In this document: positions 2 to 8,147 of the stretch, one piece after another
How the letters are laid out: each line of letters opens with the position of its first letter
Position numbering within the stretch: position 1 is the first letter of the stretch
Virus record (IMG/VR): IMGVR_UViG_3300005613_000005
Location: 91,213-155,212 of that record
Length of the DNA stretch: 64,000 nt
Strand: one strand, 5' to 3'
From: a virus
Program-made: the position numbers and the translations under genes
Notes under the pieces: model-generated
Told to the model about the DNA's origin: nothing
The model's database searches: none
The model's input: only the letters and a program-made list of their open reading frames with translations

Positions 2-148
2 GTTAAACTCTGGAAATACATCACGGCTAACCGAAACGACGAGAAACACATGAAAAACGCGGTGCAGATAATCAACGTGCTCCACAACAAGTACAGTTAT
101 CAGTATCCAACACCGACATCAAGGAGGAGAAGGAGACGTAGATGGTAA
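2..148 (+). CDS. C-terminal end of an unidentified protein (truncated by window edge)
   Basis: An open frame enters from the left edge and ends with TAA at 146-148, overlapping the next start codon by 7 nt, as is usual in this cluster. About 48 residues are visible, basic overall and ending in a run of seven arginines followed by Trp. I do not recognise it. Its reality rests on the open frame and the overlap with the following gene. Confidence 0.45.
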   Translation, partial: VKLWKYITANRNDEKHMKNAVQIINVLHNKYSYQYPTPTSRRRRRRRW

Positions 149-525
149 GAAAAGTAAAGGACGAAGACATCAAAAAGTACGAGCCGATGATCGAGATGTA
201 CCTCAAACGGTTCGTCCAAAAAAACTGGAACGAGGCTAAACTCAACCAGTATGAAGATGAAGTTCAACTGGGCAATTCAGGTTGGACCATGAGAGACTTC
301 AGACAGCACCTCAAGACCGAGGTTTGTGTCGCACTCCAAAAATACAACCCTAATTTCATAAGCGACAAAACTAAAAAACCAGTGAAAGAATCGACGTTCG
401 TGTACCAACACTTGTTCAACAGGACCGGACAGCTCATGAAAAAACTCACCAAGAAGAGGTACGGTTACGGTATATGGACCAACAATCTGGAAGAAGTTCT
501 TTGGGAACGAGATTCGGAGGAATGA
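142..525 (+). CDS. Sigma-70 region-2-like small protein (putative phage sigma factor)
   Basis: A 127-aa basic protein preceded by a strong purine-rich ribosome site (AAGGAGGAGAAGGAG). The order of features recalls sigma region 2: an early helix around residues 12-25, then DFRQHLKTEVCVALQKYNP (about 52-70), then STFVYQHLFNRTGQLMKKL. Compare the family pattern of an acidic DLxQ helix, an A..ryDp turn and an F.TYa..xI helix. No region 4 helix-turn-helix follows, so it would be a minimal sigma of the T4 gp55 type. Seen: the motif order. Inferred: promoter recognition. The resemblance is weak enough that an unrelated helical protein is possible. Confidence 0.55.
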   Translation: MVRKVKDEDIKKYEPMIEMYLKRFVQKNWNEAKLNQYEDEVQLGNSGWTMRDFRQHLKTEVCVALQKYNPNFISDKTKKPVKESTFVYQHLFNRTGQLMKKLTKKRYGYGIWTNNLEEVLWERDSEE

Positions 526-3262: not shown

Positions 3263-4066
3263 ATGCACGTACACGAGACCATTCATGAAGCATATCTTGG
3301 AGCATTAGAAGACGTTTTTCTCAACTACGAATACAGAGCTGCACCTCGCGGTATGCCGGTACGAGAGATCACCGACTACTGCTTCCGCATTCTGAGGCCA
3401 AAACCAGAACATATCGTGACGTGCAACACGGTGCGAAACGACGTCATAAAAAGATATACGGAACAAGAAACAGCGCTGTATAATTCTGGCAGCAACTCCG
3501 TAGAAGATTTTGCAGCAGCTAGTAAGTTCTGGAAAAAGATAGCTAACCCTAACGGTACTATCAATTCAGCTTATGGACACCTCATCTGGAAAAAAGCTAG
3601 CTTAGGCAATCCTATATTTGAACAAGGAAATGTCTACAGGGATGATAAAGGATGCGCGCATCATCCTGTCCCAGCTGATATGCCAAAGAACGACGAGTTC
3701 ATGAGGACTCCCTGGGAATGGTGTGTTGAATCCCTGAGAAAAGATAAGGATACGAGACAAGCACTATTACGGTTTAGCTTACCAGAACATCATTGGCTCG
3801 GCAACAAGGATTTCGTGTGTACTATAAGCGGTAATTTCTTGATACGCAACAACAAACTTAACTTAAGCGTAGTAATGCGCAGCAACGATCTCATGCTTGG
3901 ACTAGTTTATGATCTCCCATGGTTCATCAGTCTGATGTACAAGATGGTAGACGAACTCAAAGACATTTATCCTGATTTAAAAGTTGGTCACTACACACAC
4001 TTAGCACACTCTATGCACATATACGAGCGCAACGAACAAGACGTACTCAAGATGTTAGGGAGATAA
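3263..4066 (+). CDS. Thymidylate synthase / dCMP (hydroxy)methylase superfamily enzyme
   Basis: 267 aa, ribosome site AAGGAGCAAGA. The C-terminal half aligns with ThyA. Cys186 lies exactly 20 residues before Arg206 of MRSND, the spacing between the catalytic Cys and the RS.D motif in E. coli ThyA. LGLVYDLPWF matches LGLPFNI, and HSMHIYERN matches GDTHLYSNH. The Asn that selects dUMP in ThyA is replaced by Asp217, the change found in T4 dCMP hydroxymethylase. Known: that substitution shifts preference to dCMP. Inferred: this enzyme makes 5-methyl- or 5-hydroxymethyl-dCMP. The usual Pro-Cys-His context is altered to FVCT, so activity is unproven. Confidence 0.75.
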   Translation: MHVHETIHEAYLGALEDVFLNYEYRAAPRGMPVREITDYCFRILRPKPEHIVTCNTVRNDVIKRYTEQETALYNSGSNSVEDFAAASKFWKKIANPNGTINSAYGHLIWKKASLGNPIFEQGNVYRDDKGCAHHPVPADMPKNDEFMRTPWEWCVESLRKDKDTRQALLRFSLPEHHWLGNKDFVCTISGNFLIRNNKLNLSVVMRSNDLMLGLVYDLPWFISLMYKMVDELKDIYPDLKVGHYTHLAHSMHIYERNEQDVLKMLGR

Positions 4067-4067
4067 G

Positions 4068-4397
4068 ATGCCGCAACAACCACCGCAACTGTATACCGTA
4101 GACAAACAAAAAGCACTGAGATACTTCGTTGAACTACCAGAAAAGTTACGCGAGCATATAATAACATGCCTTGAGACAGAAAAATTCGTGAACGCCATGA
4201 ACGGTAATTGCGGAAACGGTGAAGACTGTTATTTTGAGATGTATTCGCCCGACAACGACTGGTCCGCTCACATAGAGCAGTACAAAACACACTATTTCAA
4301 AAACGCGGTAACGTTAGAGGATCTCAAGAACGCGCACGCGGACGCTATCTTAGAAAAAGAAGTGTTAAAACAAAAATCATACCACGATTATTCCTGA
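4068..4397 (+). CDS. Hypothetical protein
   Basis: 109 aa, starting 1 nt after the preceding stop (TAAGATG). Proline/glutamine-rich start, then a mixed helical body with a short Cys/Gly-rich stretch (NGNCGNGEDC). Not recognised. Close coupling to the thymidylate-synthase-like gene suggests co-expression. Confidence 0.6.
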   Translation: MPQQPPQLYTVDKQKALRYFVELPEKLREHIITCLETEKFVNAMNGNCGNGEDCYFEMYSPDNDWSAHIEQYKTHYFKNAVTLEDLKNAHADAILEKEVLKQKSYHDYS

Positions 4398-4453: not shown

Positions 4454-4900
4454 ATGATGAGTGATCTTCCAGTTATCAAAGACGAGAATTTTATCGGTGA
4501 GTTTGAAACGATGAACCTCGATAAAATAAAGGACAAAACTTTTATGGTGGCAGTAGCAACCGGCGATCCGGAAAAAGCTCAATACTTACCAGGAACTTTG
4601 CACGGACCCTACGACTACGGTGAGATGCTCGATGAGGTAGGGCAGATGTACGTCGAGTTCCAACACCATGCTAAAGTCCTGATATGTGAGAAAGACCGCA
4701 CAAAACGAATGGAGTTCTTAGACGGTAACACTATAGATTATATAGAAGCTAACTTTGAGAACTTGATAATGTCAGAGATAATGGACGGCGTAGTCCTGAA
4801 CCCAGAATACACTTGCCAAGCCGGCATAAACCAAGCTGACGACGAAGAGGACTTTCGTCAGGGTAAAACAGAGACAGTCGATGTGGTGGAAGAAGAGTAA
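4454..4900 (+). CDS. Hypothetical acidic protein
   Basis: 148 aa behind ACGGAGAAAA. A second ATG at 4457 has slightly better spacing. Acidic, with a C-terminal EEDFRQGKTETVDVVEEE tail. No known domain seen. Confidence 0.6.
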   Translation: MMSDLPVIKDENFIGEFETMNLDKIKDKTFMVAVATGDPEKAQYLPGTLHGPYDYGEMLDEVGQMYVEFQHHAKVLICEKDRTKRMEFLDGNTIDYIEANFENLIMSEIMDGVVLNPEYTCQAGINQADDEEDFRQGKTETVDVVEEE

Positions 4901-5402
4901 AGAAATTAAACTAGATCCCGTACAACAGTACAAGTACGACGCGTTTAAAGAGTCCATCAAGTATATCAAACGTAATCTTGAAAAATTTGACATAACCGCT
5001 GGAAAAGAATTTCCTTTTAATACTAGTTATAATCGTAGTTATTTTGGCTTACGATTCGTGACAAAATGGATCGGTTCTTCATACAACATACAGGCTGTTA
5101 AATACATAGAGATAGAAAAGTACGATAAACAACATAAAATAGTTATAGAAAATCATTTAGATAAAAAATCATGCGTTAAGATAACCATAGAAAATTTTCC
5201 AGATCGCTTGATACGCGAGATGTTAGCAGAATTTAAAGCATTAGTTGAAATTAAAAATACCCTAAAAGATAAACACGATAAATACTGGCACGAGCAGTTC
5301 TTGATAAAACATCACGAACAGGAAGTGAAAGATTGCATCGATCTGATCAACAAGGTTTCTGATCCAGTACATGACATAATCTTAGGTGATGAAGATAAAT
5401 AA
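4881..5402 (+). CDS. Hypothetical helical protein
   Basis: 173 aa, overlapping the preceding gene by 20 nt. Lys/Glu-rich, mainly helical, no cysteine motif. The start lacks a clear ribosome site, so translational coupling is likely. Function unknown. Confidence 0.6.
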   Translation: MWWKKSKEIKLDPVQQYKYDAFKESIKYIKRNLEKFDITAGKEFPFNTSYNRSYFGLRFVTKWIGSSYNIQAVKYIEIEKYDKQHKIVIENHLDKKSCVKITIENFPDRLIREMLAEFKALVEIKNTLKDKHDKYWHEQFLIKHHEQEVKDCIDLINKVSDPVHDIILGDEDK

Positions 5403-5431: not shown

Positions 5432-5992
5432 ATGTTAATAAATAAAATCAACGTGTTAGATCACGGCTACGTTGGTCTACTCTCCGTAAACCTGAGTCAG
5501 AAAAATTTCAAATCCGTATCCGATAATTATTTTAAAGCGCGCATAAATCGCGAACTCTTTAAAGTAGCAAACGCCACGTTCATTTTAAAAGTACCCCTGT
5601 TTGTACAAGTATTCCTATCACAATATGATCTGAAGATAATCAACTTACCACCTAAAAACGATAATGAGATATATATCCCCGACGTTTCCGAGATAAACAC
5701 AGGCAACGCCAACGATGACAAGAATATAAGTGAACACATAAAACAGACGCTAGACGCCCTCAACGTAAACGCCAAGGGATTTCAAATGGAAGGGTGTGAC
5801 AGGTTCACCTCACAGGTCACTACTCCTATAAGCAAATACAACGAGATCCTAATACATGGTAACTTACAAGCCTGGCTAGAGATAATCAAACGTAAAAATC
5901 TACCCCGACAGATAAAAGTATATAAAGATGCTATAGAAGAACTGTTAAAAACTGAATGGTTAGACCTGAACACGTATAAGGAAGCGAGATGA
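5432..5992 (+). CDS. Degenerate ThyX-like protein (flavin-dependent thymidylate synthase fold, catalytic motif lost)
   Basis: 186 aa, ribosome site AAGAGG. The order of ThyX landmarks is kept: an opening INVLDHGYVGLLSV (ThyX: vLD.GfV.Lvdv), then ATFILKVPLFVQVFL (ThyX: f.F.vkaPiFvarQw), then YIPD, and a C-terminal NLQAWLEIIKRKNLPRQIKV (ThyX: NaRsLmnFl.lR...AQwEI). The RHRxxSxNExSxRY signature that binds FAD and dUMP is absent; after FVQVFL comes SQYDLK. Seen: the scaffold without the motif. Inferred: a ThyX-derived binding or regulatory protein, or an enzyme with altered chemistry. Confidence 0.6.
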   Translation: MLINKINVLDHGYVGLLSVNLSQKNFKSVSDNYFKARINRELFKVANATFILKVPLFVQVFLSQYDLKIINLPPKNDNEIYIPDVSEINTGNANDDKNISEHIKQTLDALNVNAKGFQMEGCDRFTSQVTTPISKYNEILIHGNLQAWLEIIKRKNLPRQIKVYKDAIEELLKTEWLDLNTYKEAR

Positions 5993-6213
5993 GCAAGAAG
6001 AAAAAGAGAAACGTTGACGAGTGGATAGAATACGAGTATGAAAAAGAAGTTACGTTCGAGTGTCCTATTAGAGGTATCATTACTCAAAAAATAAAGGTTA
6101 AACGACTCAAAACTAGATTGGTAGAGAGTAAACCGATAATAAACATCGGCGACGACGATAAACCCATAATGGAACCGTATTCAGACGAGGTAAGATACGT
6201 CACAGACGATTGA
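5989..6213 (+). CDS. Hypothetical charged protein
   Basis: 74 aa, overlapping the ThyX-like gene by 4 nt (ATGA). Basic start (SKKKKRN), beta-rich middle with CPIRGIITQK, acidic end. Function unknown. Confidence 0.6.
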   Translation: MSKKKKRNVDEWIEYEYEKEVTFECPIRGIITQKIKVKRLKTRLVESKPIINIGDDDKPIMEPYSDEVRYVTDD

Positions 6214-6281
6214 TCATCACATTCATCCTCCATCAAACCAACATCGCGTGTGCGAATGTATAATATATGGGAGGAGAAATT

Positions 6282-6545
6282 ATGATCGATATCAAAAAGT
6301 TAAAGATCAGCGACGAACGGTTAAAACAGTTATCACGAAGTAAAAAACAAGTTAAGATAAGTTGGCATATATCACAGAACCTGGAGTACCAACGTTTCTT
6401 CAACGTGGGTGATGTGCTGTTGAAAGTAAATAAATCTACGAACAAACCGGTGATGACCGACGACATACCAGATCGGTATCTGGTAGCCCGCAACGACAGC
6501 GGGATAATATACTGTAGGCGAGTGACTAAAAGCGGTGACATATGA
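6282..6545 (+). CDS. Hypothetical protein, N-terminal paralogue of the 6702 gene
   Basis: Start at ATG 6282 behind GGGAGGAGAAATT; the in-frame ATG at 6267 lies in that ribosome site. 87 aa. The segment FNVGDVLLKVNK...RYLVARNDSGIIYCRRV resembles FSVGDILIKW...KYMVVHVDKLGIPYVKKI of the protein at 6702. Its end overlaps the 6535 frame, which resembles the C-terminus of the same paralogue. Unknown function; probably a small beta domain. Confidence 0.6.
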   Translation: MIDIKKLKISDERLKQLSRSKKQVKISWHISQNLEYQRFFNVGDVLLKVNKSTNKPVMTDDIPDRYLVARNDSGIIYCRRVTKSGDI

Positions 6546-6714
6546 AAAAGACTGGCGCGGCAATGTATACGATCTATTAGAGTTCAATGAACCTTTAAGA
6601 TGGAGTAATTATACGTTGCGACCATCAGACATAACCGGTTCACTATACTATCACTTGTACCTTCAGAAACCGATGTCGTTTCAAGAAGCAGAGGAACTGA
6701 TATGTCAAAGATAA
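6535..6714 (+). CDS. GTG-started small protein, C-terminal paralogue of the 6702 gene
   Basis: A GTG at 6535 opens 59 codons that overlap both the preceding gene and the following start. SDITGSLYYHLYLQKPM resembles DQISRDSWSWHNIYLKRPI at the end of the 6702 protein. The pair 6282/6535 may be one gene split by a frameshift (+1) or two overlapping genes. The open frame without a clear ribosome site makes the separate start uncertain. Confidence 0.45.
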   Translation: MTYEKDWRGNVYDLLEFNEPLRWSNYTLRPSDITGSLYYHLYLQKPMSFQEAEELICQR

Positions 6715-7439
6715 AGCCTACGCTTACAGCCGACGATAAGAAAAGTATAGCATACACGCAGAAGTGCAATCCCATATACAACTACCTGATCAAATATGAA
6801 GGTGTCGAGTTTAGCGTTGGTGATATACTAATTAAATGGACTACAGATTATAACGGCCACAAGACGATGGAACAAGTTGGTTCATACGCTACTACACCAA
6901 GAAAATACATGGTCGTACACGTAGATAAATTAGGCATACCGTACGTGAAAAAAATAAAGGCCGACGGCGAGCTCGGAATACAATTAAACTGTGTGGCAAA
7001 GTTCGGCGAAGACACGTTCCAGCACGATCCTGATTTTGTTGATTACTGCTTGCTGCGTGATGATGGTAAAGAATATGATCCCAATGAAGGCCTAGGAGAA
7101 CTACGAGAACGCAAGAAAAAGATACGCAAGAAAAACAAAAAATTACGTTTAAATATGAAAGATAGATCTCTTGCAAAACAACTGCTACAAAACATTAAAC
7201 AAGGAACTAGAGTGTGGAGAGTACCTAACTCACCCGACAAACCGCTGAAAGAATACGAGTACACTACTGGGAAATGGAAAAAAGGTATAGGTTCATGGGG
7301 AGACGACGGTTTAGAACTATATAAAAGAGGCAAGAAAACTAGTTACTGTATAGACGTCGATCAAATATCGCGAGATAGTTGGAGCTGGCATAATATATAC
7401 TTAAAACGCCCGATATGCGAGTTAGAAGGGGACATATGA
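6702..7439 (+). CDS. Hypothetical protein with duplicated module
   Basis: 245 aa. An N-terminal beta-like module (about residues 37-90), a Lys/Arg-rich coiled segment (about 128-150, LRERKKKIRKKNKKLRLN) and a C-terminal module ending in NIYLKRPICELEGDI. The two modules match the products of 6282 and 6535. Basic linker suggests nucleic-acid contact, but no known family was recognised. Confidence 0.6.
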   Translation: MSKIKPTLTADDKKSIAYTQKCNPIYNYLIKYEGVEFSVGDILIKWTTDYNGHKTMEQVGSYATTPRKYMVVHVDKLGIPYVKKIKADGELGIQLNCVAKFGEDTFQHDPDFVDYCLLRDDGKEYDPNEGLGELRERKKKIRKKNKKLRLNMKDRSLAKQLLQNIKQGTRVWRVPNSPDKPLKEYEYTTGKWKKGIGSWGDDGLELYKRGKKTSYCIDVDQISRDSWSWHNIYLKRPICELEGDI

Positions 7440-7762
7440 CAAAGTTAGATTTTTCTTTTCCCCATACGCAGAGTTCAATACACCACTATGGTTTCCCTAT
7501 CAACATAGGCGCATATAAAGTAAGTGCTATCGCACTAGCAGTAGTATCCCTAAAGATCTCATATGCTGTGATAGTCAGTGACGTCAAGAACGACATGCAC
7601 TTCAAACAGTACGTAGAGTTCATGCCATCGCTTAGTCACAAAGAATCATATGCGTTAGTTATAAACAAAAAATTAAACGATACCGCATACCTGCTGACGC
7701 TTAAAGTACTTTTATATAAGATGGGAGTAATAGATGAAAAAAGTGATGCTGGTCGGTTCTAA
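7436..7762 (+). CDS. Hypothetical protein
   Basis: Start at ATG 7436 (AGAAGGGGACAT upstream, 4-nt overlap with the preceding stop) in preference to an in-frame ATG at 7415. 108 aa, beta-rich, with a hydrophobic VSAIALAVVSLKISYAVIVS stretch that could be a buried core or a membrane segment. Overlaps the next gene by 29 nt. Confidence 0.55.
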   Translation: MTKLDFSFPHTQSSIHHYGFPINIGAYKVSAIALAVVSLKISYAVIVSDVKNDMHFKQYVEFMPSLSHKESYALVINKKLNDTAYLLTLKVLLYKMGVIDEKSDAGRF

Positions 7763-8147
7763 TCCCTCGCGGCGCAGTCCAGACAACAGCGTTTTTCACG
7801 CGTCCACGCGGTCCAGAATGACCGTAGACGCGTGGTTTCGCGATATAGAATGCCAGATATCCTTCACGAACGTATCGCGCGAGAAGACCGAGAACAACCG
7901 TCCTCTGACAGTTCGAGAGATAAGATCCAACCTTCCTCGTCTCAAAGAAGAGTTGAAAGGCTATGACAAGATAGTAGCCCTGGGAAACACGGCTCAGAAA
8001 GCACTGACACTGCTTTGTTTCGATTTCTTTGCAATGCCACATCCAAGTGGTCTTAATCGTTTACTTAATGACCCTATATACATTAAAAATAAAATTAAAG
8101 CGCTACATCGATATATTGAAAATAATAACCAAAGGAGTAAAATATGA
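7734..8147 (+). CDS. Uracil-DNA glycosylase superfamily-like protein
   Basis: 137 aa. Both conserved UDG-superfamily regions are visible: MLVGSNPS (residues 5-12; motif A, like GINPG of MUG) and HPSGLNR (103-109; motif B, like NPSGLSR of MUG), with IVALGNTAQKAL between as the central strand. Known: the superfamily removes deaminated or modified bases. Inferred: repair or removal of uracil or altered pyrimidines from phage or host DNA. The activating residue after motif A is not obvious, so catalytic competence is uncertain. Confidence 0.7.
   Translation: MKKVMLVGSNPSRRSPDNSVFHASTRSRMTVDAWFRDIECQISFTNVSREKTENNRPLTVREIRSNLPRLKEELKGYDKIVALGNTAQKALTLLCFDFFAMPHPSGLNRLLNDPIYIKNKIKALHRYIENNNQRSKI

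Follow-up and report, generated by a model that had tools for sequence, protein, structure and literature searches.

Can a phage protein that carries landmarks of the thymidylate synthase ThyX from start to end, and none of the residues with which ThyX holds FAD and dUMP, be a genuine ThyX homologue and, if so, what might it do? This question is raised by a gene, here called ThyXL, in a 64,000-nt stretch of phage DNA (the window) belonging to a 176-kb record (Table 1). When a phage ThyX HMM made without the window protein (P0001) was run over the record, the ThyXL ORF ranked first among all its ORFs (E = 1.8e-9; runner-up, 0.12). Searching 50,697 phage records with P0001 by tblastn gave matches in 10 (best E = 1e-3), nine of which are annotated as thymidylate synthase (ThyX) and one of which is unannotated. 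The top rank and the tblastn matches to ThyX together indicate that ThyXL is a real, remote ThyX homologue. In the PDB, a profile of the ThyXL family picked out ThyX chains, with E = 4e-8 at best; the two rows that were not ThyX both lay above 0.4. Its hhalign comparison with a ThyX profile scored 100.8 (p ~9e-15), whereas none of 30 column-shuffled controls exceeded 21.4 and none of seven neighbouring families exceeded 18.4. The structural similarity on which the original prediction had made the homology depend was present: the AlphaFold2 model of ThyXL (mean pLDDT 82, pTM 0.77) resembled Thermotoga maritima ThyX (Foldseek E = 1.6e-9, TM 0.70, ~19% identity) and also matched phage ThyX models. 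The landmarks read from the sequence, LDHGYVGL, LKVPLFV, YIPDV and the C-terminal NLQAWLEIIKRK helix, aligned with ThyX in the HMM, PDB and profile-profile alignments alike. ThyXL was hereby shown by computation to be a ThyX homologue along its whole length.

Table 1. Positions of ThyXL, its neighbours and a second ThyX relative (window coordinates unless stated otherwise)
Feature	Position	Strand	Remarks
P127, 127 aa, conserved, 5′ end of block	142..525	+	20/22 loci
ThyA-family, predicted dCMP 5-hydroxymethylase	3263..4066	+	catalytic Cys plus Asp, Ser, Arg signature
109-aa protein, no assigned function	4068..4397	+	present in some loci
P148, 148-aa conserved cassette protein, no assigned function	4454..4900	+	
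173-aa protein, no assigned function	4881..5402	+	insertion between P148 and ThyXL, window phage
ThyXL, ThyX-like pseudoenzyme	5432..5992	+	ATG start, 186 aa; ThyX fold without FAD/dUMP residues
ThyXL codons 55-70 (PLFVQVFLSQYDLKII), replacing ThyX PIFVARQWFRHRIASY	5594..5641	+	positions counted from start 5432
P74, 74-aa conserved cassette protein	5989..6213	+	ATG overlaps ThyXL stop (ATGA)
P245, 245-aa conserved cassette protein, no assigned function	6702..7439	+	
Uracil-DNA-glycosylase (UDG)-superfamily protein	7734..8147	+	in block, 16/22 loci
phrog_6721 protein, divergent ThyX relative	L001:1414-1944 (G000:C1:67480-68010), outside window		PF02511 E 1.5e-4, under cut-off

ThyXL has the fold and the order of core motifs (LDxGxV, KxPxFV, YxPD and LPxxxY) in common with ThyX (PF02511; TM0449) but lacks its N-terminal stretch and substrate loop. 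P0001 alone matched neither PF02511 nor NCBIfam and had no PHROG hit of significance, and with the curated Thy1/thyX HMM, 2 of 14 ThyXL members matched PF02511 weakly, under the cut-off. A DHO_dh Pfam match (E = 0.003) and peptidoglycan-binding matches, likewise under the cut-off and confined to one member, were supported by neither profile nor fold and were rejected.

A single-sequence search of viral contigs with ThyXL returned no orthologue, and an initial mixed ThyX alignment proved so diverse that it could not be used as a search profile. Related phages were reached via their DNA polymerase III alpha, and a search of their records for ThyXL revealed three with clear orthologues (35-43% identity); a profile of the first four members then found further loci. 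The family comprises 22 loci including the window, encoding 16 distinct proteins, none with RHR. The nearest orthologue (66% identical) comes from a contig placed in the bin of a Lokiarchaeota MAG, and two other MAG contigs carrying ThyXL are labelled Flavobacteriaceae and Cytophagales; these MAG-assigned contigs are probably phage contigs, the carriers of ThyXL being a group of large bacterial viruses. Phylogenetic analysis placed ThyXL in a monophyletic clade (support 100/100) on a long stem, apart from the ThyX proteins resident in the same phages. Among ThyXL pairs with more than 55% identity, dN was 0.15-0.37 and dS was 1.8-2.1 or saturated (dN 0.15-0.31 in the pairs with dS 1.8-2.1, the others being dS-saturated). 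Such low dN against high or saturated dS indicates purifying selection on ThyXL. Computation thus showed a single-clade, selected, RHR-less ThyX lineage rather than one decayed gene. Neither Pfam nor PHROGs nor NCBIfam matched the family, and the open literature searched yielded no paper on RHR-less ThyX homologues; none of these sources turned up a conserved dead ThyX family.

Structural and mutagenesis work has established R78, E86, S88 and Y91 of ThyX as functional residues: R78 stabilises the reduced flavin, with which E86 and S88 are in contact, and activity depends critically on S88 and Y91 (PMC11940539). The RHR and SxNExSxRY residues proved to be missing from P0001 and from every orthologue. 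In the window protein, RHR is changed to QYD, the S88/R90/Y91 loop is deleted and R147 is Gln; the NELSGRY loop that follows PIFVARQWFRHRIASY in ThyX is mostly deleted. A merged alignment of 14 ThyXL rows with 24 canonical ThyX proteins was tabulated at the residues that are invariant or nearly so in canonical ThyX. S30, H53, Q75, R78, R80, E86, S88 and Y91 were each kept in 0/14 ThyXL rows and H79 in one; R90 was deleted in all 14, E144 was absent from all (Phe in 13), the Arg at position 147 was Gln in every row, and R174 was replaced in at least 13 of the 14. Accordingly, the RHRx7S signature (R78, H79, R80, S88) is missing from ThyXL, with RH[RW] in 0/16 distinct members, and so are the ThyX substrate-binding residues Q75, R90, R147 and R174. 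Gap placement in the RHR region varied between alignments, and none of the placements restored the ThyX residues. As a family, ThyXL has thus lost the residues with which ThyX binds FAD, folate and dUMP. From these replacements we firmly infer that thymidylate synthase chemistry has been lost, and ThyXL would make no dTMP. ThyXL is within the ThyX fold superfamily yet does not have the features that define ThyX as an enzyme; it should not be annotated as thymidylate synthase, a caution that ThyX-fold phage proteins are not all thymidylate synthases. The family has its own invariant residues (L2, G12, V14, K53, P55, F57, Q59, P83, T106, A109, N113, G121, Q128, P132, Y136, G143 and W176), and the new, ThyXL-specific ones on the retained scaffold include Q59, T106, N113, Q128 and W176. 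No invariant Cys/His/Asp/Glu cluster was seen among these columns.

The original prediction also pointed to a ThyA-like enzyme two genes upstream of ThyXL. Three ORFs (109, 148 and 173 aa) in fact intervene, and the ThyA-family product looks like a (d)CMP hydroxymethylase rather than a thymidylate synthase: the profile of this family resembled the CMP hydroxymethylase MilA (4e-26) and T4 dCMP hydroxymethylase (7e-23) far more than thymidylate synthase (2e-8). The catalytic Cys (C186) and the base-specificity residue D217 are invariant in 14 ThyA-family sequences. According to the residue rules for base specificity and for ribo- versus deoxyribo-substrates (PMC5175136), the invariant Asp stands where uracil enzymes have Asn, and the Arg and Ser at the discriminating positions form the deoxy pattern. 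The product is hence predicted to be a dCMP 5-hydroxymethylase, not a thymidylate synthase. It is this product, with its catalytic Cys and its Asp/Ser/Arg pattern for deoxycytidylate, and not ThyXL that compares with T4 gp42 and MilA, whose fold is unrelated to ThyX. Given that the ThyA-like gene probably encodes a dCMP 5-hydroxymethylase, the modified-cytosine pathway is a likely context of ThyXL. The window phage also encodes a dNMP-kinase-type gene, and no 5-hmC carbamoyltransferase was found in the ten records examined. In a phage of more distant kinship (L076/G001), a hydroxymethylase of 55% identity occurs and ThyXL does not, which suggests that any dependence would be lineage-specific and that this enzyme family does not always need ThyXL.

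Looking for the same ThyA-like/ThyX-like pair in other phages had been recommended from the outset, and the pair was present in 22/22 loci, ThyXL always lying downstream of the ThyA-family gene at 0.9-4.0 kb. Both belong to a block with the order P127, ThyA-family, P148, ThyXL, P74, P245, dCMP deaminase and UDG-like. The ThyA-family gene, P148, ThyXL and P245 occur at all 22 loci, dCMP deaminase at 20 and P74 at 19 (for P127 and the UDG-like gene, see Table 1); the window block is without dCMP deaminase and has the 173-aa ORF inserted. A P148 homologue is often directly upstream of ThyXL, overlapping its start by 1 nt at many loci. Profiles of P148, P245 and P127 gave no convincing match in the PDB, and P148 had none in PHROGs and none by fold, its predicted fold being confident but unmatched. 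By eye, P127 resembles sigma-70 region 2, a likeness unsupported by the profile search of solved structures. In some phages P245-like copies lie upstream of ThyXL too, and a 92-aa ORF in the window (6267-6545) resembles a truncated copy of the N-terminal half of P245, whose profile matches twice in that stretch of the window. The phages behind all 22 ThyXL loci appear to be related, and the shared gene order is thus in part a matter of common descent rather than functional coupling; because the pair sits in a larger block common to related phages, linkage alone is no proof of physical partnership.

The reading that we tentatively prefer, and to which we give somewhat less than an even chance, is that ThyXL is a conserved ThyX-fold pseudoenzyme which, without catalysing a step itself, serves deoxypyrimidine/5-hydroxymethyl-dCMP synthesis as a subunit or regulator. 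ThyXL would then be a non-catalytic protein of the deoxypyrimidine or modified-cytosine precursor pathway, its likeliest part being that of a structural or regulatory subunit bound to the neighbouring hydroxymethylase or to a precursor-synthesis complex. Binding to a pathway enzyme is favoured since the hydroxymethylase is a constant neighbour, whereas canonical ThyX is less constant, unlinked and remote; it is from this linkage that we infer an interaction with the hydroxymethylase. The new roles first suggested for ThyXL, binding of a modified nucleotide or partnering of the ThyA-like enzyme, are both plausible. A bolder and rather doubtful version holds that no non-catalytic member of the ThyX fold was known before ThyXL, and that a phage dCMP hydroxymethylase has in it an obligate partner or regulator; the two unrelated thymidylate-synthase folds, ThyA-type and ThyX-type, would then work together in one modified-cytosine machine. 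If ThyXL is indeed a hydroxymethylase partner, a metabolic enzyme fold has been reused as a non-catalytic component in the making of modified phage DNA, and a handle is gained on a conserved block whose other members lack assigned function. Against a role in nucleotide synthesis, P148, P245 and P127 of the same block lack a match that would name them, so the block may not be concerned with nucleotides alone.

The phages that carry ThyXL mostly have an active-site-bearing ThyX as well, which brings up the possibility that the dead protein forms a heterotetramer with the phage's own active ThyX and modulates its activity. Canonical ThyX is encoded elsewhere in 6/7 ThyXL-bearing records longer than 140 kb (a count that includes one protein, in L149, reading RHW), the seventh, that of the window phage, having the divergent phrog_6721 protein, and the active sites of ThyX are built between three subunits (PMC11940539). 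There is precedent in the trypanosomatid prozymes, dead paralogues of AdoMetDC and deoxyhypusine synthase (PMC3663545, PMC5201418), which like ThyXL are selected dead homologues of metabolic enzymes. Prozymes, however, bind their active paralogue, whereas ThyXL is remote from the co-resident ThyX: the latter forms a separate, distant clade rather than a sister paralogue, scores 9-18 bits with the ThyXL profile compared with 35-50 bits for TM0449 and its nearest phage relatives, and lies ~20-26 kb from ThyXL in the two records compared directly. Moreover, no canonical ThyX or ThyA was found in the record of the window phage, an absence that is not certain as the record is possibly incomplete. 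We therefore consider a prozyme unlikely.

Two further alternatives keep a selected, non-catalytic ThyXL and are less probable still. The rebuilt pocket might hold a nucleotide without chemistry, for example hm-dCMP or a signal nucleotide, making ThyXL a sensor, carrier or sponge; the location in a nucleotide-enzyme block and the new invariant polar residues Q59, T106, N113 and Q128 are consistent with this, but ThyXL has lost the nucleotide-binding arginines of ThyX and its substrate loop. The sole match to a sponge family, the anti-Thoeris protein Tad5, covers 40 residues of a single member (E = 0.003); it has the look of a chance match, and this identity was rejected. Equally improbable in our view is recruitment of the scaffold to a core phage function outside nucleotides, such as virion or transcription: the block partners without convincing solved-structure matches, and P148 with none in PHROGs, leave the theme of the block unfixed, but its three identified members (hydroxymethylase, dCMP deaminase and UDG-like) are deoxypyrimidine/uracil enzymes, and the ThyX fold is that of a pyrimidine enzyme. 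That ThyXL is still an enzyme, performing different chemistry via new residues in the ThyX fold, is highly improbable; several polar residues are strongly conserved, but none of the ThyX flavin- and substrate-binding residues checked is kept across the family, and the invariant columns hold no Cys/His/Asp/Glu cluster. A decaying ThyX pseudogene would explain the vanished active site and has practically no probability, being ruled out by intact orthologous ORFs at 22 loci with common invariants, one clade and low dN (dN/dS well below 1).

The phrog_6721 protein is the only other ThyX-related gene of the window phage and adjoins ribonucleotide reductase. Like ThyXL, this phage protein, listed as of unknown function, is related to ThyX and altered in RHR (DTYRLSTKQSQS stands in place of RHR..NExS); unlike ThyXL, which does not match phrog_6721, it keeps Q75-, R80-, S88- and R174-like residues, as judged by eye, and so may still be an enzyme. 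As a neighbour of ribonucleotide reductase in a phage that lacks both canonical ThyX and canonical ThyA, it may be the thymidylate synthase of that phage. In two of the co-resident ThyX proteins (L149:1456-2109 and L165:1408-2100), canonical in other respects, the signature motif reads RHW where RHR is usual. The window phage also encodes a small radical-SAM protein (L014:11510-12061; Pfam E = 4e-9).
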